A DNA stretch of 64,000 nucleotides, taken from Aurantiacibacter rhizosphaerae (GTDB taxonomy: Bacteria > Pseudomonadota > Alphaproteobacteria > Sphingomonadales > Sphingomonadaceae). The notes under the pieces were generated by a model. It was not told where the DNA came from. It worked only from the letters and a program-made list of their open reading frames with translations, and ran no database searches. Position 1 is the first letter of the stretch; each line of letters begins with the position of its first letter. The DNA lies in NCBI RefSeq assembly GCF_009807005.1, contig NZ_WUBR01000001.1, positions 1,364,001 to 1,428,000 on the forward strand, read 5' to 3'. Below are positions 11,782 to 49,801 of this stretch, in pieces. Made by a program: the position numbers and the translations under genes.

Positions 11782-13173
11782 TCAGGCTGCGGCCGCCTGC
11801 GAAAGCAGCTGGCCCGACACATCTTCAATCGCCTGATCCAGCGCATCCACCAGCTTATCCACCTGTTCGCGAGAGATGATCAGCGGTGGCGACATGATTA
11901 CCGTATTGCCCACGGGCCGCACGATCACACCCAGTTCGCGGGCACGGCCAAAGACGATTTCCGCCGCGGCAAGTTCTGGGGCGAAGCTTGTCTTGCTGGC
12001 ACGGTTGGCCACCAGCTCCACACCGGCCATCAACTGCTCCCCGCGAACATCGCCCACGATCTCGTGCCGGGTCAGGCCCTGCAAACGCTCCTGTAGGTAA
12101 GGGCCTGTATCCAGAACATTGGCGAAGACATCCTCCTGCTCGTAAAGCTCGATGGATTTCAGCGCGGCAGCACACGACACCGGGTGGCCTGAATAGGTGA
12201 AACCGTGCGTCAGCACGCCGCCCGGCCCCTGCGGCACGCTGATCACCTCGTGAATGCGATCGGAGAAGATCGCCGCACCGATGGGGCAATAGCCAGAACT
12301 AATACCCTTGGCGGTGATCAGAATGTCCGGGACATGGGCGAACCTGTCTTCAGAAGCGAACCAATGGCCCAGCCTGCCGAAGCCGGTAACCACCTCGTCC
12401 GCGATGTAGAGAATGTCATTCTCCCGGCACAGATCGGCCATGCGGCGGTGATACCCTTCGGGCGCCACCAGAACGCCCCCGGCGCCCATCACGGGCTCTG
12501 CAATGAAGGCGGCGATATTTTCCGCGCCCAGCTGCATGATGCGGTAGCGCGCTTCGTCGACAAGGAAATCACAGAACTGCGCTTCGTCCATCCCGTCCGG
12601 CCGGCGAAAGCAATCGGCTGCCGAAAGGTGGTGCACGATGTCCTCTGCGATCCGATCAAACCCATAGTGGATGCCGTGAATACCCGTCAGCGCGGCGGCG
12701 AAGTAGGTCGATCCGTGATAGCCGTTGTGGCGCGACAGGATCTTCTTCTTTGCTGGTTTGCCAAGCCGATTGAAATAGTAATGCGCCAGCCGCACCGCAG
12801 TGTCATTCGCGGTGGAGCCGCCGGTGGTGAAGAAGACGTGGTTCAGATCACCCGGTGTACGCTCCGCCAGCTTGCGCGCCAGCAGGGCGGCGGGAGTGTT
12901 GGTTGAATGGCCAAAGGTGTTGAAATAGCCCAGCCGCGCGGCCTGTTCGCCCATGGCGCTGGCAATCTCGCGGCGGCCATGGCCAAGGTTGACGCACCAC
13001 AGGCCGGCAATACCATCCAGGTAGGATCGCCCGTCCTCATCGGTGATCATCATCGCATCGCCGTGGCTCATCACCTGGCTGCCGGTTTCCGCGAAAGTCG
13101 TAAAGTCGGTGTAGGGATGGATGAAATGATCCCGATCAGCACGCCAGCTATCCGATTTCGAAGTGCCATCCAT
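11782..13173 (-). CDS. Class III PLP-dependent aminotransferase (omega-amino acid:pyruvate type)
   Basis: The protein is 463 aa, the usual length for class III aminotransferases. Visible landmarks are the N-terminal DGIAGLWCVNLGHGR block, the cofactor-phosphate region TTGGSTANDTAVR, the YHGST motif, the aspartate in ADEVVTGFGR that contacts the pyridine nitrogen, and the Schiff-base lysine in ITAKGISSGY. Close families convert omega-amino acids, beta-alanine, putrescine or other amines with pyruvate as acceptor. Facing a carbamoylase-type hydrolase across a shared promoter region, it would take the amine released by that enzyme and form an aldehyde or keto acid. It is convergent with the LuxR gene, 18 bp away. 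Confidence 0.88.
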   Translation of the reverse strand: MDGTSKSDSWRADRDHFIHPYTDFTTFAETGSQVMSHGDAMMITDEDGRSYLDGIAGLWCVNLGHGRREIASAMGEQAARLGYFNTFGHSTNTPAALLARKLAERTPGDLNHVFFTTGGSTANDTAVRLAHYYFNRLGKPAKKKILSRHNGYHGSTYFAAALTGIHGIHYGFDRIAEDIVHHLSAADCFRRPDGMDEAQFCDFLVDEARYRIMQLGAENIAAFIAEPVMGAGGVLVAPEGYHRRMADLCRENDILYIADEVVTGFGRLGHWFASEDRFAHVPDILITAKGISSGYCPIGAAIFSDRIHEVISVPQGPGGVLTHGFTYSGHPVSCAAALKSIELYEQEDVFANVLDTGPYLQERLQGLTRHEIVGDVRGEQLMAGVELVANRASKTSFAPELAAAEIVFGRARELGVIVRPVGNTVIMSPPLIISREQVDKLVDALDQAIEDVSGQLLSQAAAA

Positions 13174-28065: not shown

Positions 28066-29151
28066 CTATTCCTGCAGGAAATCGTCCCTGGTCCCCAGAT
28101 ACTCCAGAAATGCCGGGCCAACGCCTTGCGATTGCAGATATTCCGACGTCACCGGCAGATCGGGAGAGGTGAAGCCCGGCTCCTCCATTACGCGCCGTGC
28201 AAAATCGTGGTTCAGGATGGCCGCGCGGCCCACCAGCACGAAATCCGCACCCTTGGCCATCGCAGCCTCTGCATCGCCTCGGTTGCTGATCTTTCCCGCC
28301 ACGCCCAACGCAACCTTGTCTCGCGGCAGGCTGCCGAAGATGTCCAGCAGGTCCTTGTCGCCAAAGCGGTCATCCTCCGGCTTCTTGAACACATTCCATA
28401 GTGACATATCGAGATAGTCTACCGTCTCCTGCAACAGGATCTGCGCCGCCAGATCGCGGATTTCGCCAAGGTCCTGCCCAAAGCGTTCTGGTGACAAGCG
28501 AACGCCCAGCTGGAAATCGGGGCGGCAGGCGCTGCGAATGCCATCGATCACTTCCAGCAACAGCCGCGCGCGGTTTTCCGGGGAGCCGCCATAGCGATCC
28601 GTCCTGCGGTTCAGTTCGCGTGAGAGGAAGGCGCTGAGCAGATAGCCATGCGCCCCGTGAATCTCCACGCCATCGAACCCGGCCCGTTCTGCGCGCACCG
28701 CCGCAGCGATGAAATTGTCGCGCACGGCCTCAACCTCATGCAAGGTCAGGGCGCGGCTGGCCACGTCCTCGGCAGCGGACGGCCCGACAGGCACGCCCAC
28801 CAGATCAGCCGGAGAGCGCAGGCCCCCGTGGTGCAGTTGCACCGAGGAGACGGCACCGCGGCTGCGGATGGCATCTGCCAGCCGGGTAAGCCCCTCCAGA
28901 TGCAGCGCGTCATCGAAGATGCCAAGCTGGCCGGCAAAGCCCTGGCCCTGCGGTTCCACATGGGCAGCCGCCGTCATCACCATGCTGAAACCGCCATCGG
29001 CGCGCATCGTCAACCAATTAATCTCATCGTCCGAAAGCGCGCCATTTGCGTGGCTTTGCATATTGGTCATCGGGGCCAGCGCGATGCGGTGGCTCCACAC
29101 TGGCCCGCGCGGCAGATGGAGCGGCTGTGTAATCGCGCTCTTCCGGTTCAT
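28066..29151 (-). CDS. NADH:flavin oxidoreductase, Old Yellow Enzyme family
   Basis: The protein is 361 aa. The ATG at 29151 is preferred because the frame upstream to 29223 lacks an ATG and does not look conserved. Family landmarks are RIALAPMTNMQS at the FMN-binding start, VQLHHGGLRS, the long helix with EIHGAHGYLLSAFLS, the RTDRYGGS-ENRARL motif, and FVLVGRAAI near the phosphate site. These flavoenzymes reduce activated C=C bonds or nitro groups in the cytosol. It is convergent with the anti-sigma gene, 32 bp away. Nothing near it fixes a substrate, and it may be unrelated to both the sigma module and the polysaccharide locus. Confidence 0.88.
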   Translation of the reverse strand: MNRKSAITQPLHLPRGPVWSHRIALAPMTNMQSHANGALSDDEINWLTMRADGGFSMVMTAAAHVEPQGQGFAGQLGIFDDALHLEGLTRLADAIRSRGAVSSVQLHHGGLRSPADLVGVPVGPSAAEDVASRALTLHEVEAVRDNFIAAAVRAERAGFDGVEIHGAHGYLLSAFLSRELNRRTDRYGGSPENRARLLLEVIDGIRSACRPDFQLGVRLSPERFGQDLGEIRDLAAQILLQETVDYLDMSLWNVFKKPEDDRFGDKDLLDIFGSLPRDKVALGVAGKISNRGDAEAAMAKGADFVLVGRAAILNHDFARRVMEEPGFTSPDLPVTSEYLQSQGVGPAFLEYLGTRDDFLQE

Positions 29152-29282
29152 GACATTATCCAACCCGATGGTTCGCAAGCATACTTTGGCACATGCGAAT
29201 AGACGTGCGGTGATCCGCGTCAACCGTCATCGGCGCCGCAGCGATGCACGCCATGCGAACCATCAGGGGTGAAAGAGGCCGG

Positions 29283-31175
29283 TCAGGCCAGCGTCACGTC
29301 GATGAAGGTCTTGTGCGGCGTATAATCATCCACCGCGCAGGCATATGTCACGCTGCCATCGTCATTCTCGTCAACAATCTCGAAGCCCAGACGGGTGTAG
29401 AAATCGGCGACCATGGCGTTGCGATCGGTTGGGATATAGGTGGCCCTGATGGTCTCCACGCCCGCCAGCGCTGCGGTTTCGAACAGGCTGTTCATCACGC
29501 ATTGCTCCACGCCGCGTTCCAGCACGCGGCACGATTGCAGCCAGCTGTCGATTGACCATTCGGCCCCGTCCTTGCGAACGATAACCACGCCGATCATCCC
29601 GTGCGCTGCAAACTTGTCCTCCAGCCGTACCTGCCATCCCAGCAGATCGGGATCGTCCTCCATCTTCCTGACATCCTCCTCGCCATAACGGCGGGTGGTG
29701 AGGTTGAACTGGTTGGACTTGTTGATCAGCTGGGTGATCCGGCTGCGCCCGGCATCATCGAAGGGGGCAATCGTCATACGCATGCCAAGCGATGTCAGGT
29801 AATCGTCGTAATTGCCGATTTTTGCGCGGATTTCCGCTGCCGCCGCGCGCCCGCCATAGCTTTCTGCGCGAGAGATATCCTCCGTGTTCAGCGGCAGGTG
29901 ATCGAACAGGCCGGATTGCGCAATACGCTCTATGTAAAAGGACGGATCGTCGCCCACTTCGATGGTGGAAACCAGCGGCAATTCCTGCCGAACACGCTCC
30001 CGCTCTGCGGCGTTGTCATCGATGAAAACGAAAGATTCCAGGCCAAGGCTGAGCGTTTCGGCGATGGACTTGATGTTGGTTGCCTTGTCGCTCCAATTGG
30101 CCTGAAACACCGCGACGTGATCTTCCTTGATCACCATTTCGGAGTGGTTGCGAAACGGCTCCCGCGCGATTTCATCGGTGTTCTTGGAACATACGGCCAG
30201 CACCACGCCCCGCTTGCGCAGGGTGATGATGAAGTTCTGGAACGCGACGAAAGCCTCACCCTCCGGCGAGTTCTGGCCCAGCCGGATACCGGCCAGCCCA
30301 TCATCGCCGATCACGCCGCCCCATAATGTGTTGTCCAGATCAAGCACCAGACCGCGCGCGGCCTTGCCCTTCATCGCTGCCAGCACGCCGGCGATGGAAT
30401 CCGCGGCCAGCGGGCACACGTCCACGCTGAAAGGGATCTTTGCCGCATGATAGCGCACGGGGTCCAGCCAATTTTCCATGCCGACCCGGCTGGCAAGGGC
30501 AGCCTGATCCCACAGCAGCCAGCGGCCCTGCATCGCGCCTTCGGCCAGCATCAAATTCATGCACTGCCTAAAACGCGCGCTGGAGCCGGGTGTTGCCAGC
30601 TCTGCGGAGGAAACCTGCAAGGCGGCAGGAAGCGTGGCGAAAATGACCTGGCAGCCGGTCTTGTCCTTGGCCGCCGCAGCCAGCGCGGTGACGAGGTTTT
30701 CCGCATCGGCCAGCGCTTCATCCTCCGCGGCCTGATCCAGCATCGGCCGCTCACTGGCAAAGGCGCTTTCATCCAGCACCACCAGCAGGGCATCCAGCGC
30801 GCAGCCAAAGCAATCGGCGGGCGAAAAGGCGAAACTTGCCACGCTGTCGTAAGGGGCTTCGACGGACGAAATACTCAAACCCCGCGCCAAGCCTGCCGCA
30901 GCCAGCGGGGCGGGCAGATAGCTGAGCGTGCGAGAACCCAGCAGCCCCAGCCTTACCGGCGTGAACTGTGAATTGGGAAAGTCGGCCTTCTGCAGCTTCT
31001 TCGCCAGCCGCTCCGTCCGCAATTGTTCGCGCATACCCAGCTGCTGGTTGGCCAGGGTCTTTACTGCGACATAATCCGGCTCTGCACCGCCTGCCAGAAC
31101 GGCCTCGATCTCTGCCAGACGGTCTGCCCAGTCGTTGGCCAGGGGAGGGCGCCAGGGGAAGTTCAAGGATGTCAT
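29283..31175 (-). CDS. FkbH-like HAD-IIIC/acyltransferase protein
   Basis: The protein is 630 aa. A variable N-terminal region of about 270 residues precedes a HAD phosphatase domain with motif I LDLDNTLWGG (about 279-287), motif II in AVCSKN and motif III FIDDN (about 384-388). A GNAT-like domain follows at roughly 460-620 (INKSNQFNLTTRR, HGMIGVVIV, SWLQSCRVLERGVE). FkbH enzymes are known to dephosphorylate 1,3-bisphosphoglycerate and load the glyceryl unit on an acyl carrier protein; some relatives make lactyl or related thioesters. The ACP gene is directly upstream and overlaps by ATGA, so the partner is clear. The cassette with MBOAT and SGNH genes suggests a small acyl group for decorating the polysaccharide. 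Confidence 0.87.
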   Translation of the reverse strand: MTSLNFPWRPPLANDWADRLAEIEAVLAGGAEPDYVAVKTLANQQLGMREQLRTERLAKKLQKADFPNSQFTPVRLGLLGSRTLSYLPAPLAAAGLARGLSISSVEAPYDSVASFAFSPADCFGCALDALLVVLDESAFASERPMLDQAAEDEALADAENLVTALAAAAKDKTGCQVIFATLPAALQVSSAELATPGSSARFRQCMNLMLAEGAMQGRWLLWDQAALASRVGMENWLDPVRYHAAKIPFSVDVCPLAADSIAGVLAAMKGKAARGLVLDLDNTLWGGVIGDDGLAGIRLGQNSPEGEAFVAFQNFIITLRKRGVVLAVCSKNTDEIAREPFRNHSEMVIKEDHVAVFQANWSDKATNIKSIAETLSLGLESFVFIDDNAAERERVRQELPLVSTIEVGDDPSFYIERIAQSGLFDHLPLNTEDISRAESYGGRAAAAEIRAKIGNYDDYLTSLGMRMTIAPFDDAGRSRITQLINKSNQFNLTTRRYGEEDVRKMEDDPDLLGWQVRLEDKFAAHGMIGVVIVRKDGAEWSIDSWLQSCRVLERGVEQCVMNSLFETAALAGVETIRATYIPTDRNAMVADFYTRLGFEIVDENDDGSVTYACAVDDYTPHKTFIDVTLA

Positions 31176-31417
31176 CCCTTCTGCTTCGCCGCCGCGTTCA
31201 CCAGGTCACCCAGGTTCTTGAAACCCTGCATCTCGGATGTGCTGAAATGAACGCCCAGTTCCATCTCGATCATCACCATCAGCCGCACGTGGGAAAGGCT
31301 GTCCCACTGTGCGACATCGTCTGCCGTGGTTTCCATGGTGACGGGGCCGTCATACTCATCGAACAGGTCCCTGATGATTTGCGTAACCTGTTCAAGAATG
31401 GCCTGTGGGTCCGACAT
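31172..31417 (-). CDS. Acyl carrier protein of the FkbH/MBOAT cassette
   Basis: The protein is 81 aa with the ACP helical pattern and the phosphopantetheine serine in WDSLSHV at about residue 40. The ATG at 31417 is favoured over a longer frame to 31456 because it gives the normal ACP length. It is not the housekeeping fatty-acid ACP, as the residues around the serine (Ser-His-Val in place of Leu-Asp-x-Val-E) and the context differ. It would carry the glyceryl or other acyl group made by the FkbH protein encoded next, much as DltC carries D-alanine. A 4'-phosphopantetheinyl transferase would have to come from elsewhere. Confidence 0.88.
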   Translation of the reverse strand: MSDPQAILEQVTQIIRDLFDEYDGPVTMETTADDVAQWDSLSHVRLMVMIEMELGVHFSTSEMQGFKNLGDLVNAAAKQKG

Positions 31418-31472
31418 GAAATTATCCTTTTTGCTGAAAGTTCTGGAGCGCATCAATCATTAGGCATGTGCC

Positions 31473-32663
31473 TTACAGATCAGGCACGACGAGCCTTAGA
31501 TCGGTGTAATCCCGATTTGGATCATAGTCTTTAACGGCGGTGCGAATTTCTTCCTCGTATTCTGCGATATTCTCTCGCGTTACGCGGTCACTGCCGTTCT
31601 TGATCGCCATCATGAAACGGCGAAGAATGGCCGGGTTATAGATGTGGCCGACTTCGCGATAATTGGCGAGATCGCCCGCGACAGTGGGATCATTGTCCAG
31701 CGCGAAAATGCTGACATTGGGCAGATCGGCCACGGCATTCACCAGGCACCGCCGCGCCACCATCTGTTCATCCAGCAGGGTGGGGCTGATGTCGTTACGC
31801 CGCACGTAGTAGAAAGCATAGGACACGATCGGGAACAGGATATCCACCTGCGCCCCGCGCGCGGAAAGCTTTTGAAGATCGGGGATCAGCTGTTCGTTAA
31901 GAGCGGTAAAGCTGTCGCAGGTCTTGCCGCTGGACTGGGTGATGCCGGTCCGGTTGCGCTCCACCATCCGCTTGATCCGGGAGAGTTCCGGCGGGCTCTG
32001 GAAGCGGGCATACATGTTTTCGATGTAGGCGTCGTAACCCGCATCATCGGGATTGCTGTAGGTGGTCTTGCCGCGCAGGATATCGAAGGTGCGGCGAATG
32101 GTCGGCGGGTTCACCATGCGCAGATCGTTGGTGATGTCATCGTCATACAGGAAGGTGGGGAAGCCGCGATTGGCGACGTCCGCGCCTTCCATATAGGTCC
32201 AGTCGTATGTCAGGATCACGCGCTTTACCGCGGGATTATCCACCAGCCTATCCAGCACCAGGTCGCGATCGATCGGGCGCGGGCCGCCATAGCTCAAATT
32301 GGCGGCATTGGTGTCCGGCCCCAATATCTCCCGCATATATTCCGGCGTGTACATCGCGGTGATGGAACTGCCGACGAGGAAGGTGTTGTACGACGGATCC
32401 TTGGCCGCGACATCGATCCAGTCGATCACCAGATCCCTTGGCGTATCGCCCGCCTCGATGCGCGGTTCGGCGCCCCAGCGATAGACATTGTGCGGATCAA
32501 CCGCGATCACCAGCGCGGCCAGCGCCAGGTATAGCACGCTGATCAGCACCGCTGCAAACAGCATGGGCCGCGCCGCTTTCCAGCGGATGGATTTGAGCGA
32601 TTGCCTGCGCGCGTTTCGCGATGCGGATGGTGCCACGGGGCTTGCGTTGTCAGGTTTCGTCAT
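31473..32663 (-). CDS. Membrane-anchored SGNH/DltD-like protein of the MBOAT cassette
   Basis: The protein is 396 aa with one membrane helix at about residues 33-55 and the rest predicted outside the cytosol. A VGSS motif at about residues 97-100 opens the catalytic block, as the G-S-S serine does in DltD and related SGNH-type acyl-transfer proteins. A late histidine in REVGHIYNP is placed like the DltD/AlgX histidine. No acidic residue sits in the usual D-x-x-H position, so the triad may be rearranged. The gene starts 4 bp after the MBOAT stop, the same gene pairing as DltB/DltD and AlgI/AlgJ. The likely role is final transfer or removal of the acyl group on the polysaccharide in the periplasm. 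Confidence 0.75.
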   Translation of the reverse strand: MTKPDNASPVAPSASRNARRQSLKSIRWKAARPMLFAAVLISVLYLALAALVIAVDPHNVYRWGAEPRIEAGDTPRDLVIDWIDVAAKDPSYNTFLVGSSITAMYTPEYMREILGPDTNAANLSYGGPRPIDRDLVLDRLVDNPAVKRVILTYDWTYMEGADVANRGFPTFLYDDDITNDLRMVNPPTIRRTFDILRGKTTYSNPDDAGYDAYIENMYARFQSPPELSRIKRMVERNRTGITQSSGKTCDSFTALNEQLIPDLQKLSARGAQVDILFPIVSYAFYYVRRNDISPTLLDEQMVARRCLVNAVADLPNVSIFALDNDPTVAGDLANYREVGHIYNPAILRRFMMAIKNGSDRVTRENIAEYEEEIRTAVKDYDPNRDYTDLRLVVPDL

Positions 32664-32667
32664 GGCG

Positions 32668-34236
32668 TCAGAATCCCTGATAGAGGAACGGCGGCTGGCG
32701 GGACACATAGTAGAGCGCGGCAAGCACCAGCACCGACATATAGGCAGCCTGGACCCAGCCCGGCCGCCACAGGCGGCGCAGGAAGGCAGGGCCATAGCTC
32801 TTGTTATCATAGGTCATGATGGCCGGACGATAACGTCGCATCAGCTCAACACTGTTGGGGCACAGGTAAATGATGGAAAACGCGATGCCCAGCATCATCA
32901 CCGGATAGCGCATGTTGAAGGCCGAGGGCGCATCGAAGGATGTGCCGAACATCTGCGAGAACAGGTGGAAGCCGCCGGCCACGCTTTCGGAACGGAACAT
33001 CGCCAGGCTCAGCAGCAACGGCAGGAAGAACACGGCGCGTTCAAGGAAGCCGATGAACAGCCGGTTCTTGTCCTTCGAGAAGTTGCGATACCACTTCGAT
33101 GCGCGCACCTCTGTTTCCAGCGCAAACCAGAAGCCATGCATCAGGCCGAACACCACGAAGGTCCACAAGGCGCCGTGCCAGATGCCGATGATCTGGAAGT
33201 TCACCAGCATGGGGATCCACAGGCTCAGCAGATGTGCCGGGATCGGGGCCAGCCGGTTGAACATGGCATATCGCGTACCCGCCACCGAGAGGGGCGTGTA
33301 CAGGAAGCGGGCGATCACGCGCGTCAGCGTCATATGCCAGCGGCGATAGTAATCGATGATGCCGTTTGCCTTGAAGGGCGAGAAGAAGTTGATGGGATAG
33401 CGTAGGCCGAACATGCGGGCGAGGCCCAGCGCCATGTCCGAATAGCCGGAGAAATCGAAATAGAGCTGGCCCATGTAAGCCAGCGCCCCGATCCATGCCT
33501 GCACCGGGTGGATCTCTGCCCCCACATTGGCGGCGCTGAACACGACATCCACCGTGGGGGCAAGATTGTCTGCAATCACCACCTTCTTGAACATGCCGAT
33601 GGCGATGAAGGTGAGGCCTACGGCAAGGTCGATCGGGTTGAGGCGGAGGAACCGCTTGGACTGGATCTGCGGATTGAACTCGCTGAGATAGGTGATCGGC
33701 CCGATGATCAACTGCGGAAAGAAGCTGACGAAGGCGCCGTAGCGGCAGAAGGCGGAAACCATTGCCTTTGGCGAGGACAGCTTGCCCAGGAACTGGAGTA
33801 CGTTCTTCTCCCGACCATAGGCATCCGCCAGAAAGGCGGCCTGGTGGAAGGTATAGAAGGAAATACCTGCCGGAATGGCGATGCCGGCAATGTCCACCAG
33901 CACCCCGCCACTGGGGCCGAACAGCAGTGAGACGATCTTGTACTTGAAATAACACAGCGACAGGAAGTTGTACGCCTGCCCTGCGAGGTAGAGCCGTTTC
34001 CTGCGCTTGTCCTCGTCATCCATGAAGGTGATGGCAAGGGCGATCACGAAATTCACGATCAGCGCAATGATCAGCAGCGCGACAGAGAACCAGCTGTGCG
34101 GAATGTAGAAGATTATCGACGAGACGAACAGGACGATAAGAGCCGCATTCTTGCCGGCGAAATGGCTGATAGTATAAAAAGTTATCAATACGATAGGCAG
34201 GAATACAAACAGAAAGAGAGGGTCTGTAAAAATCAA
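32668..34236 (-). CDS. MBOAT family membrane-bound O-acyltransferase (AlgI/DltB-like)
   Basis: The protein is 522 aa from a TTG at 34236. That start yields the family's usual N-terminus M-I-F-T-D-P-L-F-L-F and has GAAGGGAA 7 bases upstream. The ATG at 34263 would add nine charged residues that do not fit. About ten membrane segments are seen, with the MBOAT core: SFYTFHQAAFLADAY, the YFDFSGYSDMALGLARMFG block, FRxPWxxxS-like HMTLTRVIARF, and the catalytic histidine in IGIWHGALWTF plus GLMHG. In AlgI and DltB this protein passes an acyl group across the inner membrane to an exported polymer. The neighbouring ACP and FkbH genes suggest the donor is an ACP thioester. Confidence 0.88.
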   Translation of the reverse strand: MIFTDPLFLFVFLPIVLITFYTISHFAGKNAALIVLFVSSIIFYIPHSWFSVALLIIALIVNFVIALAITFMDDEDKRRKRLYLAGQAYNFLSLCYFKYKIVSLLFGPSGGVLVDIAGIAIPAGISFYTFHQAAFLADAYGREKNVLQFLGKLSSPKAMVSAFCRYGAFVSFFPQLIIGPITYLSEFNPQIQSKRFLRLNPIDLAVGLTFIAIGMFKKVVIADNLAPTVDVVFSAANVGAEIHPVQAWIGALAYMGQLYFDFSGYSDMALGLARMFGLRYPINFFSPFKANGIIDYYRRWHMTLTRVIARFLYTPLSVAGTRYAMFNRLAPIPAHLLSLWIPMLVNFQIIGIWHGALWTFVVFGLMHGFWFALETEVRASKWYRNFSKDKNRLFIGFLERAVFFLPLLLSLAMFRSESVAGGFHLFSQMFGTSFDAPSAFNMRYPVMMLGIAFSIIYLCPNSVELMRRYRPAIMTYDNKSYGPAFLRRLWRPGWVQAAYMSVLVLAALYYVSRQPPFLYQGF

Positions 34237-34632: not shown

Positions 34633-35454
34633 ATGCAGCTCAGTGACATTGATTTCGTGATTATCGGCGCGGCCAAATCGGCCACGACCTGGCTTCAGAC
34701 GCAGTTGCAGTCTGATCCGGCGATCTACATGCCTGACCCTGAACTCCACTATTTCTCCAGGGAATATGAGCGTGGCACGGACTGGTATCTGTCGCAGTTC
34801 AGCGATGAGGGGATCGGCAAGGTCGTTGGCGAAAAGTCCAACTCCTATCTCTACACGCCCGAAGCGCCGGAGCGTGTTCACCGCGATCTGCCGCATGTCA
34901 AACTGATTGCCCAGCTGCGCAATCCGGTTGCGCGGGCCTATTCCAGCTATTGCATGCTTTTCAGGCGCGGAGAGGTGGGGTCCGATATCGAGAACTATCT
35001 CGATCCTTCGAAGGGAGAGCACACGCAGATCCTGGGCTCCGGCAATTTTGCGTCTTACCTGCAATCCTACGTCGATCTTTACGGCCGTGAAAAGCTGCTG
35101 ATCCTGTTCTTCGATGGCGTGTCGAAAACGCCGGAATTGCAGATGTCGAAAGTGCGTGGCCATCTGGGCCTGCCGGATCGTGCGCTGGCACCCGAAGGGC
35201 GCGAAAAGGTGAAGGACAAGACCGCACCGCTGGTGCCAGTCGGCATGCGCAAGCGCCTGTCCTGGATGAAGCCACTGGTGCAGCCCTTGCGCGGCACGGC
35301 CCCGTTCGAGGCGGCGCGCGGCATGATCGCGCGCAAGACCGAATATCCGCAGTACACCGACGATCTGAAAAAGCGCGTGAGCGAGTATTACGCCCCATCG
35401 ATCGAGGCGCTGGAGAAAATGAGCGGCCAGTCGTTGAACCATTGGTATAAATAG
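34633..35454 (+). CDS. PAPS-dependent sulfotransferase
   Basis: The protein is 273 aa. The 5'-phosphosulfate-binding loop is clear near the start (IIGAAKSATTWL), and the 3'-phosphate-binding motif is in IAQLRNPVARAYSSY at about residue 95. A G-E-K-S segment (VGEKSNSYLY) and a G-x-Y-x-x-x-L-like GNFASYLQSYVDLYG block follow, as in carbohydrate sulfotransferases. It is cytosolic, with no signal or membrane helix. Its place at the head of the plus-strand polysaccharide genes implies sulfation of a sugar in the repeat unit or its lipid-linked precursor. PAPS synthesis genes are not in the window. Fold assignment is strong; the acceptor is unknown. Confidence 0.85.
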   Translation: MQLSDIDFVIIGAAKSATTWLQTQLQSDPAIYMPDPELHYFSREYERGTDWYLSQFSDEGIGKVVGEKSNSYLYTPEAPERVHRDLPHVKLIAQLRNPVARAYSSYCMLFRRGEVGSDIENYLDPSKGEHTQILGSGNFASYLQSYVDLYGREKLLILFFDGVSKTPELQMSKVRGHLGLPDRALAPEGREKVKDKTAPLVPVGMRKRLSWMKPLVQPLRGTAPFEAARGMIARKTEYPQYTDDLKKRVSEYYAPSIEALEKMSGQSLNHWYK

Positions 35455-41896: not shown

Positions 41897-42145
41897 CACC
41901 GCAAACGCTAATACATTTGCGAGGGCAGGCCAAAGGCGGGTTTGGATATCGCCGTGCCAAAGGCGATCAATCGCTGGCGATTATGAGGATACGACTACAC
42001 CCTTTGAGGGAGTGTCATCGAGCTAATGCGCAGTTTAAACGCAGTAATTACCCCAGTGAACAGTAGACAGCAGGCGATACGAACTGCACCCTTGGGAGCG
42101 AATTTCAGTATTTTACCCGGTGCAGGCAAGAGGGCAGTGAATATC

Positions 42146-43528
42146 ATGCGATGTGATCGAATCCTTCCCGCCCGTTCTATTTGGCTGGCGATGGTTGCTG
42201 GCCTGGTGGCCTGTTCCGGTCCGGCGGAAAGCGGCACGCAGGAAGGGGAGGCAGGCTGGCAGACACCGGAGCACCCGGCCTTTCCCGGTGCGCAGGGATA
42301 TGGCTCTCGCAGCAAGGGCGGGCGCGGTGGCAAGATCATGCAGGTCGTTTCGCTGGAGGATTCCGGACCCGGAACCTTGCGCGAATGCATTGAAGCGATG
42401 GGCCCGCGCGTCTGCGTGTTCCGCGTTTCCGGCGTCATCCGCTATACCGATCAGCCGCCCCGCATCCGCCACCCGTTCATCACCATTGCCGGGCAAACCG
42501 CGCCGGGCGATGGGATCACCTTGGCCCACAGCGGCGGGGAAATGGGCCGCACGCCTTTGGTGATCAAGGATACCAATGACGTAATCATTCGCCACATCCG
42601 CGTGCGCAACGATCGCATCGGAGACCGGCGCGGCAGCGAGGATTCGATCACGATCGAGAACAGTTCGCACGTGATCCTGGATCACGTCAGCGCCAGCTGG
42701 GCGCGTGATGAGCTGGTGAACGGCCACGGCAACAACAACTTCATCACCGTCAGCAATTCGATTTTTTCCTGGGGTATCCCCAAGCATGACAAGTGCGCGC
42801 TGCTGGCATCGGACCCCAAGGCACCGCAGTATTTCAGCTTCATCGGCAATCTTTGCGCCCATAACGGGGATCGCAATCCCGATATCAATTTTCCGCCCGA
42901 TTCCTGCGTGGAGGTGGTGAACAACGTATTCTACAACGCGCAGTCCGAATTTGCGGAAGTGTGGGAATCCTACGGCGGGACGCCTGTCGCCATCATCGGC
43001 AATACCTTCATCGCCGGTCCCGATACGCAGCGGAACGCGCTGGGCATTATCCGGCAGATCATTTCCAGCACCGGGCCCGCGCGCGTTTACGTGGATGACA
43101 ATGAATTCATCGGGAATTTCATGGAGAAAGACACCGGCCTTGCCGACATCAGCCTGACGCAGCCCGATTGCGCGACAACATTCACACCGGCCTCCGCGCA
43201 GCAGGCCTATCAGTCGGTGCTGGGCGGTGCAGGCGCATTTCCGCGCGATGCGCTGGATCGGCAGGTGGTGGACGATGTGCGCAACCGCACAGGTTCTGTG
43301 ATGAAGGCGCCGGGCACCATCCCGCAATTTGCCATGGAGCGCGCCGGGCGAGATACGGACCGCGACGGAATGCCAGATGATTGGGAGACTGCACATGGCT
43401 CCAGCCCCGATTTTGCCGATCCGTGGGATGATGCCAATGGAGACGGTGTGGCCAATATGGATGCCTGGCTGGAACAACGGCACCTGGAAGTCATCGGTGC
43501 AAGCGTGCCGCAGGGTAGCGCGGTCTAG
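42146..43528 (+). CDS. Pectate-lyase-like right-handed beta-helix lipoprotein (1)
   Basis: The protein is 460 aa. A lipoprotein signal ends at L-V-A-C-S (Cys at about 21), favouring ATG 42146 over an in-frame ATG at 42026. The mature part starts PAFPGAQGYGSRSKGGRGGK and continues through beta-helix turns (TIAGQTAPGDGI, VIIRHIRVRNDRIGD, VILDHVSASWARDE) that match the PL1/polysaccharide lyase fold. The C-terminus has Asp-rich calcium loops (DTDRDGMPDDWE, DANGDGVANMD). Such proteins in polysaccharide loci often trim or cleave the locus product. Lyase catalysis is not confirmed, because the catalytic Arg/Lys cannot be placed by eye. It lies 9 bp upstream of a glycosyltransferase gene. Confidence 0.83.
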   Translation: MRCDRILPARSIWLAMVAGLVACSGPAESGTQEGEAGWQTPEHPAFPGAQGYGSRSKGGRGGKIMQVVSLEDSGPGTLRECIEAMGPRVCVFRVSGVIRYTDQPPRIRHPFITIAGQTAPGDGITLAHSGGEMGRTPLVIKDTNDVIIRHIRVRNDRIGDRRGSEDSITIENSSHVILDHVSASWARDELVNGHGNNNFITVSNSIFSWGIPKHDKCALLASDPKAPQYFSFIGNLCAHNGDRNPDINFPPDSCVEVVNNVFYNAQSEFAEVWESYGGTPVAIIGNTFIAGPDTQRNALGIIRQIISSTGPARVYVDDNEFIGNFMEKDTGLADISLTQPDCATTFTPASAQQAYQSVLGGAGAFPRDALDRQVVDDVRNRTGSVMKAPGTIPQFAMERAGRDTDRDGMPDDWETAHGSSPDFADPWDDANGDGVANMDAWLEQRHLEVIGASVPQGSAV

Positions 43529-46235: not shown

Positions 46236-47936
46236 TCAGCGCCCGCAGTTGGCGGCGGGCAGTTTGGCAGATGTGTTGAAGAATTTGCCGGAGCCATAGC
46301 GCGTGTGATCATTGGCCAGCATGTTCAGATATTCCTCGATATTGGGGTATCCGTCGCCGTCGGCATCGGCATTTGCATCCGATTTATTGGCATCGGTGTT
46401 CTTGTACTTGTTTTCCCATGCATCGGGCATGCCGTCATTGTCTTTGTCTGCCAAGGCATCGACGCCGGCCGTGATCTTGGCAAAGCCGCCATAATCTGCC
46501 GGGTTGCCGCTGGTGAAGCCGTTCTGGAACAGATAAGGCGCGCTGTCGCAGGTTTGCAGATCCTTGATATAGGCCGCGTCCACATTGTCACGGCAGCGGC
46601 CCGATCGGCAAAGCAGTGCCCCGGCCTGATCGATCACGGTGCGCTGCGCCGTGCGGGCATCGGTCAGCATCCAGGGCCGCAGAAAATTGTCGTTGATACC
46701 GGGCGCGTAGACCCAGTCATTGGCGTAGACGCCGGAACTGATGGTTGATCCGGGGTAGGCGCCAAAGCCGCGGCGGCTCTTGTTGCCCTCGCGAAAAACC
46801 TTGAAGCCGAAGGACGTGTCCGTCGCCCTGTCGAACAGGGCGGGGAAGAACGATTCGGGCCGATCCTGCGACAGCACGCCTTCCATGTGGCTGTTGCTGA
46901 CCCAGTTGAGGAAGACGGTGCCGAACTGGTTGGAGATCAGCCCCGGCTCGCTGATGAAATTATACACCGTGTTGCCAATGAAATCGATCTGCCCTGTGGT
47001 GCCCGTGGGCGAAGGCGAAACGCCGCCTGCGATATTGGCCCCGCGCTCATCACCATGTTGCGACAAATTATAGGCAATCGTGGCCCGGTTTGCAGGCTTC
47101 ATGAAGAACGTTTTGCAATGATATGCGCCGGGATCATGGCCGGCATCACGGCACAGGTTCGGCCCGATCATGGAGAACTGGATTGTGCAATCGGTGCACA
47201 CCGCGTCCAGGCTTTCATCCGTGCCGAACATGGCCGTCACGTGATCCAGGATCTGGCGCTGGCTCTCCCCGATGCGCACGGAATCGCCATTGCTACTGGG
47301 CGCATCGGTATGGTTGCCATAGCGGAAGCGGATGTGCCGCACGATCGTATCGTCCTGGCGGCGGGTGTAGAACAGCGGCGCGTCCACCAGCCCCTTGCCA
47401 CGCACCACCTCTATGCCGCGGGGCGAGGTCTGGCCCGCAATATAGAGGCCATCCACGGTGATGCGCATCGCCGATTGAATGACGATCTGCCCGCTCACAT
47501 CGAACACGCAATAACGCGGGCGCCCCGCAGGAATGGAATAGGGGGAGGATACCTGCAGCGCGAGGGCGCATTCGCGCAGGGTGATCTTTCCATCATTGGG
47601 GTCTGCCGTGTCCGCCAGGCTGTTGATGCGATAGACCACGGCATTCGGGCTGCGCACGCTGGCCTGCGCGCCAAAGCCGATGGCGGTGGGGAATGCCAGC
47701 GGATGGCGGCTGGCTTCCGGAATGCTGCCATTGTCAGGGTCGGCAAAGGCCGCAGCGCCCGCCGTGCTCTGTGCCGAGGTGGGCGTGGGTGTCGGCGTTG
47801 GCGATGGAGACGGGGTGGGCGTCGCCGTGGCGAGCGATGTTGGCGTGGAGGGAGAGCTATCATCGCCCCCGCATGCGCTTAAGAGCGCCAGCGCCAGGGT
47901 CACAAAGCCTAAACGGCCACGGAGAGATCGCACCAT
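46236..47936 (-). CDS. Pectate-lyase-like right-handed beta-helix lipoprotein (2)
   Basis: The protein is 566 aa. The start at 47936 gives a compact lipoprotein signal ending L-L-S-A-C-G-G; a start at 47969 is also in frame. A Thr-Pro-rich linker at about residues 30-55 separates the anchor from the beta-helix, a common outer-membrane spacer. Helix turns include ITVDGLYIAGQTSPRGI, DDTIVRHIRFRYGN and ILDHVTAMFGTDESL, parallel to those of the first lipoprotein. The C-terminus carries acidic calcium loops (DKDNDGMPDAWE, DADGDGYPNIEEYL). Several Cys residues may form disulfides. It is the second protein of the same type within 5 kb and on the opposite strand, probably a distant paralogue and not a recent copy. 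Confidence 0.83.
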   Translation of the reverse strand: MVRSLRGRLGFVTLALALLSACGGDDSSPSTPTSLATATPTPSPSPTPTPTPTSAQSTAGAAAFADPDNGSIPEASRHPLAFPTAIGFGAQASVRSPNAVVYRINSLADTADPNDGKITLRECALALQVSSPYSIPAGRPRYCVFDVSGQIVIQSAMRITVDGLYIAGQTSPRGIEVVRGKGLVDAPLFYTRRQDDTIVRHIRFRYGNHTDAPSSNGDSVRIGESQRQILDHVTAMFGTDESLDAVCTDCTIQFSMIGPNLCRDAGHDPGAYHCKTFFMKPANRATIAYNLSQHGDERGANIAGGVSPSPTGTTGQIDFIGNTVYNFISEPGLISNQFGTVFLNWVSNSHMEGVLSQDRPESFFPALFDRATDTSFGFKVFREGNKSRRGFGAYPGSTISSGVYANDWVYAPGINDNFLRPWMLTDARTAQRTVIDQAGALLCRSGRCRDNVDAAYIKDLQTCDSAPYLFQNGFTSGNPADYGGFAKITAGVDALADKDNDGMPDAWENKYKNTDANKSDANADADGDGYPNIEEYLNMLANDHTRYGSGKFFNTSAKLPAANCGR

Positions 47937-48197
47937 GTCCACCGGCGCTGCGCGAAATTCGTCTTCCATCGTATTTTACCTGCAATGAGGGCACACCGGC
48001 CCTTTCGTCATCCCCCTGTATTAGATGCAGGGCGCCTCTCGCACCATTCAGGTTGAATGCGTGTGACTTTTACCGCGATAAATGACGAATCGTGCAGCGA
48101 AAGCGCCGGATCGTGGAACTCTTGTCGACGAGAAGCTGGCGCGGGCGCGCGAAGGGCAGCATTCGCCCGTCTCACCTATTGATTCGAGCCCCTGTTG

Positions 48198-48887
48198 TCA
48201 GGCCCGCAGGATGGAGCGGACGTGCATAAAAGCCTCCGCCGCATGCAGGTGCACGGCAGACCCGCGCACCGCTGCCATGGCGCGCAGGGTTTCGGGGCTG
48301 CGCTCTTCAGGGAAGGGGCGAACCTGGCTGGCGAATGCGCCAAAGGCTTCCAGCTTGCGCTCCAGCGTGCTTTGAATGTCGATAAACACATTGGGCACGA
48401 AGGCGGGCGTGGTGGGGGCGGCGTACCAATTGGTTTCGCTCACCGTCTCATAGCAGAGAATGTCACATGGCGCGTTTGAATGGCGCGGGCGGGCGGCAAC
48501 CATGGATGCAAGAAAGGTGTACTGGTGATCCAGATGGATATCGCCCACGAATGGCAGCAGCAGCGTATCGGGGCGCACATCATCCACCAGCTGCGCGAAA
48601 GGCGCGTTGCATTCGCGAGCGGGGATCGCATCAAGCTCGGCAGCGGGCAGGTCCAGCATGCGGGTATCGGTCACACCGATGATGGCGTGGGCGCGGCGCA
48701 TTTCCTGCTGCACCTGCTCCACCTGTTCGCGCGGGAAAATCGGCTGCCGGCCGGTGGTGGCGACGGCAATGGTGACATCGGCCCCTTCATCCACCAGCCG
48801 CGCCAGCGTGCCGCCACAGCCCAGTATCTCGTCATCCGGATGCGGCGCTATGGCCAGCACGCGGCCAAACCTATCGGACAGTTTCAT
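48198..48887 (-). CDS. PIG-L family N-deacetylase
   Basis: The protein is 229 aa. The zinc motif is complete: APHPDDE at about residues 14-20 and the paired HLDH near residue 117. These metalloenzymes remove acetyl from N-acetylated sugars or related conjugates. The gene overlaps the formyltransferase gene by one base (48887), so the two are tightly coupled. A natural reading is that one group is taken off an amino sugar and a formyl group is put on, possibly at different positions. The order and the actual substrate are inference. Confidence 0.86.
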   Translation of the reverse strand: MKLSDRFGRVLAIAPHPDDEILGCGGTLARLVDEGADVTIAVATTGRQPIFPREQVEQVQQEMRRAHAIIGVTDTRMLDLPAAELDAIPARECNAPFAQLVDDVRPDTLLLPFVGDIHLDHQYTFLASMVAARPRHSNAPCDILCYETVSETNWYAAPTTPAFVPNVFIDIQSTLERKLEAFGAFASQVRPFPEERSPETLRAMAAVRGSAVHLHAAEAFMHVRSILRA

Positions 48888-49801
48888 TACCGCTCTCTTC
48901 CCAGAATTGCATGCTGCAGCGGGGTCTTGCCCGATGCTGTTTCCCAGTCTTCCACCCGCAGCAGGCCATCGCCGGTCATGATGGTAATCTCGCCGTCAGC
49001 CCGCTCTATGATCTGGCCATTCATGGCGTGATATCGGCCATCGTCGGGCAGGGCGCTGCTGCGCCAGATGGTCAGCTTGTTATCCGCGTCGAAGGTGAAG
49101 GCGCCGGGATAAGGCTTGCCCACGGCGCGCACCAGGCGTTCAATTTCAATTGCGCTCTGGTTCCAGTCGATCAGCCCGTCTGCCAGCGTCCTTTTCGCGG
49201 CATAGGTGGCATAGCGCGCTTCCTGCGGCTGGCGCGGCAATTTGCCGCTAGCGATGGTGGCCAGCGTTCGATTCAGCATCGTTTCCAGCGCATCCTGATG
49301 CTTTGCATACAGCGTTTCCGCCGTTTCATCCGGTGCAACATGGAAGAACTGCTGATCGATGATGTCGCCATCGTCCACATCATCGCCCAGCCACATCAGC
49401 GAACCTGCGGTGATCGGCTCCTGCAACAGGATCGTCCACGGCAGGGCCGCGCGCCCGCGCAGGCGCGGCAGGGCGGCGGGGTGATAACCGATGATCGCAT
49501 CAGGCTTTAGATTCATGAATTCATCGCGGCACAATTGCGACCAGCCGATCACGAAGATGAAATCGACGTCCGCATCCCTGATGGCCTGAAGGGTTTCGGC
49601 GCTATTGGAATTCAGCGTGCGGAATAATCTGGCGTCCGCCCTCTCGGCATGACCAGCAAGATCCTCGAAATCAGAATGCCTGCTGGCCGCCTCAAGCTCC
49701 AGCGTGACGATAATCTCAAGCGACCATTCCGGCGATCGGGCAAGTGTTTCAGCGGCCAGCGCGGTGCTGCCCACGCAGCCTACAAGTGCAGCTTTCAACA
49801 T
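48887..49801 (-). CDS. Formyltransferase family protein (amino-sugar N-formyltransferase-like)
   Basis: The protein is 304 aa with the formyltransferase fold of Fmt and sugar N-formyltransferases: IGYHPAALPRLRGRAALPW at about residues 104-122, then LGDDVDDGDIID with the catalytic Asp near 143. The usual Asn-x-His is changed: Gly105 replaces the asparagine while His107 is kept. I recall this G-x-H form in a subset of family members with sugar substrates. A C-terminal domain after residue 210 (NQSAIEIERLVRAVGKPYPGA) matches the Fmt C-domain. Too little distinguishes it from a tRNA formyltransferase by fold alone, but the context of PIG-L, DegT and dehydratase genes favours a sugar role. Confidence 0.83.
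   Translation of the reverse strand: MLKAALVGCVGSTALAAETLARSPEWSLEIIVTLELEAASRHSDFEDLAGHAERADARLFRTLNSNSAETLQAIRDADVDFIFVIGWSQLCRDEFMNLKPDAIIGYHPAALPRLRGRAALPWTILLQEPITAGSLMWLGDDVDDGDIIDQQFFHVAPDETAETLYAKHQDALETMLNRTLATIASGKLPRQPQEARYATYAAKRTLADGLIDWNQSAIEIERLVRAVGKPYPGAFTFDADNKLTIWRSSALPDDGRYHAMNGQIIERADGEITIMTGDGLLRVEDWETASGKTPLQHAILGRER

Follow-up and report, generated by a model that had tools for sequence, protein, structure and literature searches.

A candidate carrier-fed acylation cassette combining MBOAT, SGNH, acyl carrier protein and FkbH genes in Aurantiacibacter rhizosphaerae and other Proteobacteria

Organization of the cassette

The 64,000-nucleotide stretch of the Aurantiacibacter rhizosphaerae genome analyzed here (the window) carries four adjacent genes on the minus strand, which encode, in the order of transcription, an MBOAT acyltransferase, an SGNH/DltD-like extracytoplasmic protein, an acyl carrier protein (ACP) and an FkbH-like protein of the HAD-IIIC family. 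A sequence-only reading of this DNA had pointed out these four genes, the ATGA overlap of the ACP and FkbH genes, the 4-bp spacing between the MBOAT and SGNH genes and a VGSS motif in the SGNH protein; all are present, and the coordinates of the overlap and the spacing agree. The cassette comprises the following elements (ORF, open reading frame).

32668..34236, minus strand: MBOAT acyltransferase, 522 amino acids from a TTG start; a longer ORF from 34263 encodes 531 amino acids
32671..32688, minus strand: C-terminal acyl-shuttle hexapeptide FLYQGF (FxYxxF), fused to the MBOAT; its tyrosine is Tyr528 in the 531-residue numbering
31473..32663, minus strand: SGNH/DltD-like extracytoplasmic protein, ATG at 32663, one N-terminal membrane helix
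31172..31417, minus strand: ACP, 81 amino acids from an ATG, PF00550 above the cut-off
31172..31175, minus strand: ATGA overlap of the ACP stop and FkbH start, from the ORF coordinates
29283..31175, minus strand: FkbH-like HAD-IIIC protein, 630 amino acids

The genes are separated by 4 bp (32664-32667), 55 bp and the ATGA overlap, respectively. Three of them pass curated family models: FkbH scores 290 bits on TIGR01686 (cut-off 146.65) and matches 3slr_A (E 1.1e-53), the MBOAT scores 78.3 bits on PF03062 (cut-off 27) and, among solved structures, is nearest by sequence to DltB (E 7e-18), and the ACP, with 22.7 bits on PF00550, lies narrowly above the cut-off of 20.8. The SGNH protein has no Pfam or NCBIfam match at E<=0.001; its assignment relies on the VGSS motif, the membrane anchor and a weak structural match to DltD. 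The 3.42-Mb genome contains one MBOAT match and one FkbH match.

Candidate catalytic residues

In alignments of the window proteins with those of eight relatives (nine sequences), D279, D281, N282 and T283 of the FkbH DLDNT motif and the CSKN motif (329-332) are invariant (9/9); we take these two motifs to hold the catalytic Asp and Cys. The phosphopantetheine serine of the ACP is Ser40 in DSLSH, a motif that reads DSL(S/G)H among the order-keeping relatives. Likewise invariant in all nine sequences are His363 (WHG) and Tyr528 of the MBOAT (531-residue numbering), as well as the candidate nucleophile Ser100 of the VGSS motif and His340 of the SGNH protein, the latter preceded by a Glu or Asp three residues upstream (position 337).

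The AlphaFold model of the SGNH protein (mean predicted local distance difference test score, pLDDT, 63.6) displays a helix at residues 23-55. Of its 916 matches in the PDB, the sole one at E<=0.001 is DltD of Enterococcus faecalis (E 7.8e-4), and the first 14 rows include five titled DltD and two 3bma chains titled D-alanyl-lipoteichoic acid synthetase, although the fold match is weak (top template modeling score, TM, about 0.32, root-mean-square deviation 17.5). When the SGNH alignment was used as a profile against solved structures, two weak unrelated matches resulted (best E 0.16). Compared with two Qipengyuania relatives, the four genes have ratios of nonsynonymous to synonymous substitution rates (dN/dS) of 0.03-0.16, and compared with S. 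glycinis of 0.10-0.28, both rough values with dS near saturation.

Conservation of gene order

A scan of genome contigs returned 20 loci, in which the nearest relatives of the window MBOAT belong to Qipengyuania. All four genes stand in identical order at the eight close relatives (L002-L009, 64-86% identity), which makes the cassette more than a chance neighborhood; at the 12 clostridial loci (26-34% identity), none of the other three cassette genes was found. The order MBOAT-SGNH-ACP-FkbH is seen at 15 loci, namely the window, L002-L009, four loci of the window's family (L084-L087), Sinorhizobium meliloti ml28 pSymB (L114) and L158, in five of which (L084-L087, L158) a methyltransferase gene is inserted between the SGNH and ACP genes. 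As to the co-occurrence in relatives that the sequence-only reading had raised, the four genes thus stay together far beyond the window. In a plasmid collection, a close FkbH is accompanied by a close MBOAT in 39/39 listed Sinorhizobium records.

The ml28 genes are annotated as MBOAT family protein, TonB-dependent receptor, acyl carrier protein and HAD family hydrolase, the second name being attached to the SGNH partner (L114:19486-20715); this is probably a misannotation, which conceals the cassette. On pSymB of S. meliloti 1021 (L113, L141; about 631.2-633.3 kb), FkbH is split into two overlapping ORFs, whereas the ml28 ORF is intact. In record CP050561, an IS630-like element lies beneath the FkbH match. 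Within the genus of the window, FkbH has no match in four other sampled genomes, and the cassette is therefore patchy there. The oxidoreductase-like gene that adjoins FkbH (28066-29223) was rejected as a part of the cassette, having no match in L002-L009.

Recurrent linkage of FkbH, ACP and MBOAT genes

Across 289 class genomes, we counted 33 FkbH matches (29 genomes; 34 rows listed, two G033 pieces merged, two rows below the family cut-off) and 138 MBOAT matches (95 genomes). An MBOAT lies within 6 kb of 16 of the 33 FkbH matches, window included, where 0.14 would be expected for random MBOAT placement in a 3.3-Mb genome. Counted by genome, co-occurrence is 19/29 versus 76/260 (Fisher p=2.3e-4). 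In a phylum-level sample (299 genomes, not counting that of the window), an MBOAT is found within 6 kb of 17 of 93 FkbH matches (54 genomes), with 0.69 expected for 3.9-Mb genomes and linkage counted with 95 MBOAT rows. For closer comparison, 31 class places beyond the window were taken (weak G270 left out), as were 16 of the 17 linked phylum places (not G535:C26) plus G565:C69, the MBOAT of which lies just beyond 6 kb.

An ACP gene accompanies 16/16 class-linked, 13/14 family-linked and 16/17 phylum-linked MBOATs, and none of the 20 MBOAT loci without FkbH that served as control regions from the class MBOAT list, the stretches compared being 3.7-8.5 kb for unlinked loci, 4.2-20 kb for class-linked loci and 64 kb for the window. 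The distance between the ACP and MBOAT genes is below 2 kb in 13/16 class-linked loci and 3.0 kb in L063; in L064 and L065 the scored ORF is overlong. Candidate SGNH proteins, scored by motif and a hydrophobic stretch, occur near the MBOAT in 10/16 class-linked, 11/14 family-linked, 12/17 phylum-linked and 10/20 unlinked loci, to which an SGNH profile adds L084-L086 and L158. The family sample (29 of 37 rows) consists of 14 loci with FkbH and MBOAT, three with FkbH and ACP without MBOAT, one of which sits on a 3.6-kb contig, and 12 with FkbH alone. At L101-L112, 12 family-level FkbH homologues have no ACP or MBOAT match in 16-20 kb. The route from carrier to MBOAT with FkbH in the loader position, which the sequence-only reading had put forward for the window, thus gains support from co-occurrence beyond it.

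Shuttle motif and phylogeny of the MBOAT proteins

FxYxxF closes 34 of the 37 complete linked MBOATs (38 linked loci, with L059, cut by its contig, left out) and is found in 13/17 loci of the phylum set. It is also present in 20/21 unlinked MBOATs, the remaining one being truncated by its contig; it is thus a hallmark of the MBOAT-SGNH type rather than of linkage to a carrier. L055, a linked locus, has two successive GSS-type proteins ahead of FkbH.

In a tree of 60 MBOATs (leaving out L065, L066, L086, L093, L059 and L113), 31 of the 35 FkbH-linked sequences group in a single clade (100/99) nested within the unlinked ones; the remaining four sit on long branches, and their placement is unsure. 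A second, 66-row tree, to which two DltB and 12 phylum-level sequences were added and from which the four long linked sequences L052, L055, L060 and L064, as well as L067 and the near-copies L085, L094 and L137, were dropped (L149, L156, L157, L159 and L160 are also left out), retains the main linked clade (99/95, 32 rows), groups eight further linked sequences with other unlinked MBOATs (100/97) and sets the two DltB apart on a branch of length 3.67. Because the midpoint rooting served for drawing only and the DltB branch is very long, the deep order is unsure. The simplest reading of these trees is that FkbH-ACP was recruited at least twice, apart from Dlt.

Comparison with known acylation systems

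Like DltABCD/DltX, the cassette has a dedicated carrier, an MBOAT, a membrane-anchored SGNH protein and an FxYxxF shuttle peptide. Unlike Dlt, it has FkbH as the loader instead of DltA, and its shuttle motif is fused to the MBOAT instead of residing on DltX, of which no separate copy was seen among ORFs of at least 60 amino acids. The DltA model TIGR01734 has 14 matches in the own genome, none above its cut-off (best 156 versus 559.85 bits) and none inside the window; the window MBOAT reaches 120.7 bits on the DltB model TIGR04091, below the cut-off of 375; and the seven NCBIfam matches of the ACP at E<=0.001 are to other ACP models, all sub-cut-off, with no DltC model among them. Membership in Dlt was rejected because the DltA and DltB models are unmatched at their cut-offs and the MBOAT is far from DltB on the tree. 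The description "Dlt-like" in the sequence-only reading holds for the anatomy of the cassette, which is, however, no Dlt operon. A teichoic acid acceptor is unlikely in a Gram-negative host.

The second group of relatives comprises PatA/PatB and AlgI/AlgJ-AlgX, with which the cassette shares an MBOAT with a C-terminal FxYxxF and an extracytoplasmic SGNH protein, but which differ from it in that the cassette links a dedicated ACP and a loader to this pair. According to the accessible parts of a 2025 account, Dlt keeps FxYxxF on a separate microprotein and PatA carries the motif itself, acetyl-CoA is the demonstrated donor for PatA, and the MBOAT/SGNH pathways besides Dlt are said to work without a carrier protein, evidently as acyl-CoA users (PMC12148441). 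FLYQGF on the MBOAT together with a dedicated carrier thus joins a PatA-type motif arrangement to a Dlt-type carrier arrangement. Considering (i) the sub-cut-off DltB score, (ii) the tree distance and (iii) the motif on its own C-terminus, the window MBOAT looks like a PatA/AlgI-type MBOAT that would have gained a carrier; the nearest non-FkbH rows in the trees, which hold no named PatA or AlgI, are unlinked class MBOATs with the same ending.

The third group is formed by the FkbH/ACP pairs of tetronate and methoxymalonyl pathways and the FkbH domains of aeruginosin pathways, which likewise combine FkbH with a carrier and some of which O-methylate the loaded glycerate. There, the unit enters a polyketide or peptide, whereas in the cassette the pair stands next to genes for a membrane acyltransferase and an SGNH protein. 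Glycerate is loaded by FkbH in the tetronate and aeruginosin pathways, as the available portions of the reports describe. No description of an FkbH-ACP-MBOAT-SGNH combination for a polysaccharide was found in the open literature, subscription papers and patents being mostly outside the search, and the accessible text of that literature places FkbH and MBOAT together only in aeruginosin-type peptides.

A related locus with an apparent role in sanxan synthesis

A relative genome, apparently that of Sphingomonas sanxanigenens, has three MBOAT matches, one of which (L091, 521 amino acids) adjoins an 89-residue ACP, a 640-residue FkbH and a 339-residue GPS-motif protein, an SGNH candidate; Pfam confirms MBOAT, PP-binding and FkbH_N. 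This MBOAT, which falls inside the main FkbH-linked clade, is apparently SsI of S. sanxanigenens NX02: the accessible part of the SsI paper describes ssI (521 amino acids, "alginate O-acetylation protein", NX02_28110 by text and table order) as needed for sanxan, with complementation by a plasmid, and calls the mechanism of acyl addition unclear (PMC5399355). Proteins resembling RmlA, RmlD and RmlB, together with a bacterial sugar transferase, lie 7-12 kb from the L091 MBOAT, matching the rml genes and ssB of that paper, the accessible portion of which makes no mention of FkbH or ACP (PMC5399355). This apparent SsI locus differs from the window in that its FkbH is only 40% identical and its gene order is different.

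A proposed route of acyl transfer

The gene identities, the kept order, the recurrent linkage, the invariant candidate residues and the fused motif are the observations from which we propose, with a probability of about 0.68, a carrier-fed acylation of the cell envelope; its catalytic steps, acyl group and acceptor are predictions. FkbH would charge the phosphopantetheine arm of the ACP with a small hydroxy-acid, most likely a glyceryl unit supplied by 1,3-bisphosphoglycerate. At the cytoplasmic face, the MBOAT would accept this acyl group from acyl-ACP and deliver it to the tyrosine of its own FLYQGF on the outer side, from where the SGNH protein would receive it on Ser100 and attach it to a hydroxyl group on an exported glycan, which here is probably the neighboring Wzx/Wzy-type exopolysaccharide.

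Several observations weigh against this route. Three complete but divergent linked MBOATs (L052, L055, L060) end without the hexapeptide, L158 of the phylum set ends in FIYMGY, the fold match of the SGNH protein to DltD is weak, and a structure prediction for the MBOAT including the terminal peptide reached a pLDDT of 40 (nine similar sequences) and was not used. No MBOAT lies within 6 kb of 17/33 class and 76/93 phylum FkbH matches. Suomilide/varlaxin clusters, which are of the aeruginosin type, contain FkbH and MBOAT together with separate proposed roles in the accessible descriptions, and shared clustering alone is thus no proof of a shared pathway. A review names acetyl on the glucose of sanxan and, in its accessible part, no glyceryl (PMC9104527), an argument against glyceryl unless that group was overlooked.

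Some of these points belong to a different explanation, in which the MBOAT-SGNH pair performs ordinary O-acetylation from acetyl-CoA and FkbH/ACP make glyceryl-ACP for another enzyme of the cluster, such as a cytoplasmic acyltransferase whose substrate is a sugar nucleotide or a lipid-linked unit. Besides acetyl being the only group named on sanxan and the glycerate that suomilide/varlaxin FkbH loads for a peptide, this explanation draws on PatA, which has the same motif and uses acetyl-CoA (PMC12148441, accessible part), on the amino-sugar genes of the window cluster and on the FkbH-ACP pairs that occur without an MBOAT. However, S. meliloti and S. glycinis keep the four genes together with no amino-sugar gene seen next to them (ml28 annotation; four ORFs of L009), the ACP gene discriminates between linked (16/16) and unlinked (0/20) MBOATs, and most linked MBOATs form a clade of their own. 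We consider separate acetylation and glyceryl-ACP functions improbable.

Nature of the acyl group

FkbH is expected to give D-glyceryl. Plain glyceryl, which is in keeping with the chemistry of FkbH, has about an even chance of being the acyl group in the window. Other lineages possess an optional fifth gene, a methyltransferase of one family, in or beside the module (L052, L060, L063, L064/L119, which are the same record, L065, L084-L088, L090, L158), for which the following positions were recorded.

L084:7925-8839, L087:7776-8687, L158:7164-8102, L063:6925-7845: methyltransferase
L088:8165-9118, L119:6940-7875, L116:9264-10232: methyltransferase

At L116, the methyltransferase adjoins FkbH and ACP, and no MBOAT was found. 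At L061, a short-chain dehydrogenase/reductase (SDR, 11940-12680) lies beside FkbH in a place similar to that of the methyltransferase. Judging from the genes, the methyltransferase fits the use of an O-methylglyceryl variant in the lineages that bear it.

More generally, the carrier route may be right while the acyl group is, depending on the lineage, a derivative of glyceryl (O-methyl-, sulfo-, oxidised or lactyl-like). The methyltransferase family in or beside many modules argues for such a derivative, as do the SDR at L061, the sulfotransferase found beside the cassette in the window, three Qipengyuania and Rhodobacteraceae SC52, and the modifications of FkbH-loaded glycerate known, from the accessible reports, as O-methylation and sulfonation in aeruginosin-type pathways and as oxidation and methylation in methoxymalonyl-ACP pathways. 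The methyltransferase, however, is unmatched at the ten loci comprising the window, L002-L009 and L114 (0/10), and the oxidoreductase-like gene next to the window FkbH is without a match in L002-L009. A derivative is on balance rather doubtful. Gellan bears L-glycerate according to the accessible part of a review (PMC9104527). As FkbH should instead yield the D form, a connection of the cassette to this glycerate is no more than a lead.

Genomic context and the acceptor

Beyond the cassette, the window continues into an exopolysaccharide locus.

34633..35454, plus strand: sulfotransferase, divergent to the cassette; also beside it in three Qipengyuania loci and about 2 kb off in L008
35543..41899: pyruvyl transferase, amidotransferase, Wzx-like flippase and a sub-cut-off Wzy_C match; exopolysaccharide locus

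Homologues of the window's sulfotransferase, pyruvyl transferase, amidotransferase, Wzx and Wzy accompany the cassette in the three Qipengyuania loci. At L008, Wzx, Wzy, sulfotransferase, glycosyltransferase and pectate-lyase-like homologues are found by the cassette, and at L004 two glycosyltransferases and a flippase. By analogy with these surroundings, the neighboring exopolysaccharide is the likely acceptor in the window.

Alternatively, the acceptor may be an envelope glycan other than exopolysaccharide, e.g. lipopolysaccharide or capsule. Pfam identified no polysaccharide assembly gene among the flanking ORFs of S. glycinis (L009; four ORFs), L084 (two) and L087 (three), and about 5 kb downstream of the S. 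meliloti ml28 cassette lies the start of a stretch of capsule (Rkp) genes. Another glycan is nonetheless unlikely in view of the Wzx and Wzy homologues in three Qipengyuania and L008, the glycosyltransferases and flippase of L004, and the loss of sanxan without ssI (PMC5399355, accessible part). At L087, a phosphoglucomutase/phosphomannomutase gene lies about 2 kb from the cassette.

The window also contains amino-sugar genes (DegT, formyltransferase, PIG-L), and at 48198-49801 the PIG-L deacetylase and formyltransferase genes share a single base, a hint that the polymer may include an N-formylated amino sugar. Two further genes of the exopolysaccharide locus are pectate-lyase-like, one (42026-43528) by a sub-cut-off PelZ match (134 versus 840 bits) and the other (46236-47969) only by eye, with a weak TSP3 match.

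Implications

Judged by its gene content, the cassette is a new form of MBOAT-SGNH acylation that would work like Dlt by anatomy without being a Dlt operon. At the genome level, the recurrent FkbH-ACP-MBOAT-SGNH module contradicts the statement, as it stands in the accessible part of PMC12148441, that a carrier is found only in Dlt. More tentatively, and with somewhat less than even confidence, we suggest that in Proteobacteria an FkbH-ACP loader has been joined at least twice, apart from Dlt, to an MBOAT-SGNH pair with a fused shuttle, creating a widespread second carrier-fed class that would place glycerate or O-methylglycerate esters, derived from glycolysis, on exported glycans.

The module points to enzymes able to place small hydroxy-acids on polysaccharides. 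As acyl groups govern the gel properties of gums such as gellan (PMC9104527, accessible part), the cassette genes may have practical use, and tractable non-pathogenic hosts exist in S. sanxanigenens, for which a mutant of the apparent MBOAT is available, and S. meliloti. If the proposal is true, this second carrier-fed class could supply the source that is missing for the glyceryl esters of certain bacterial polysaccharides.

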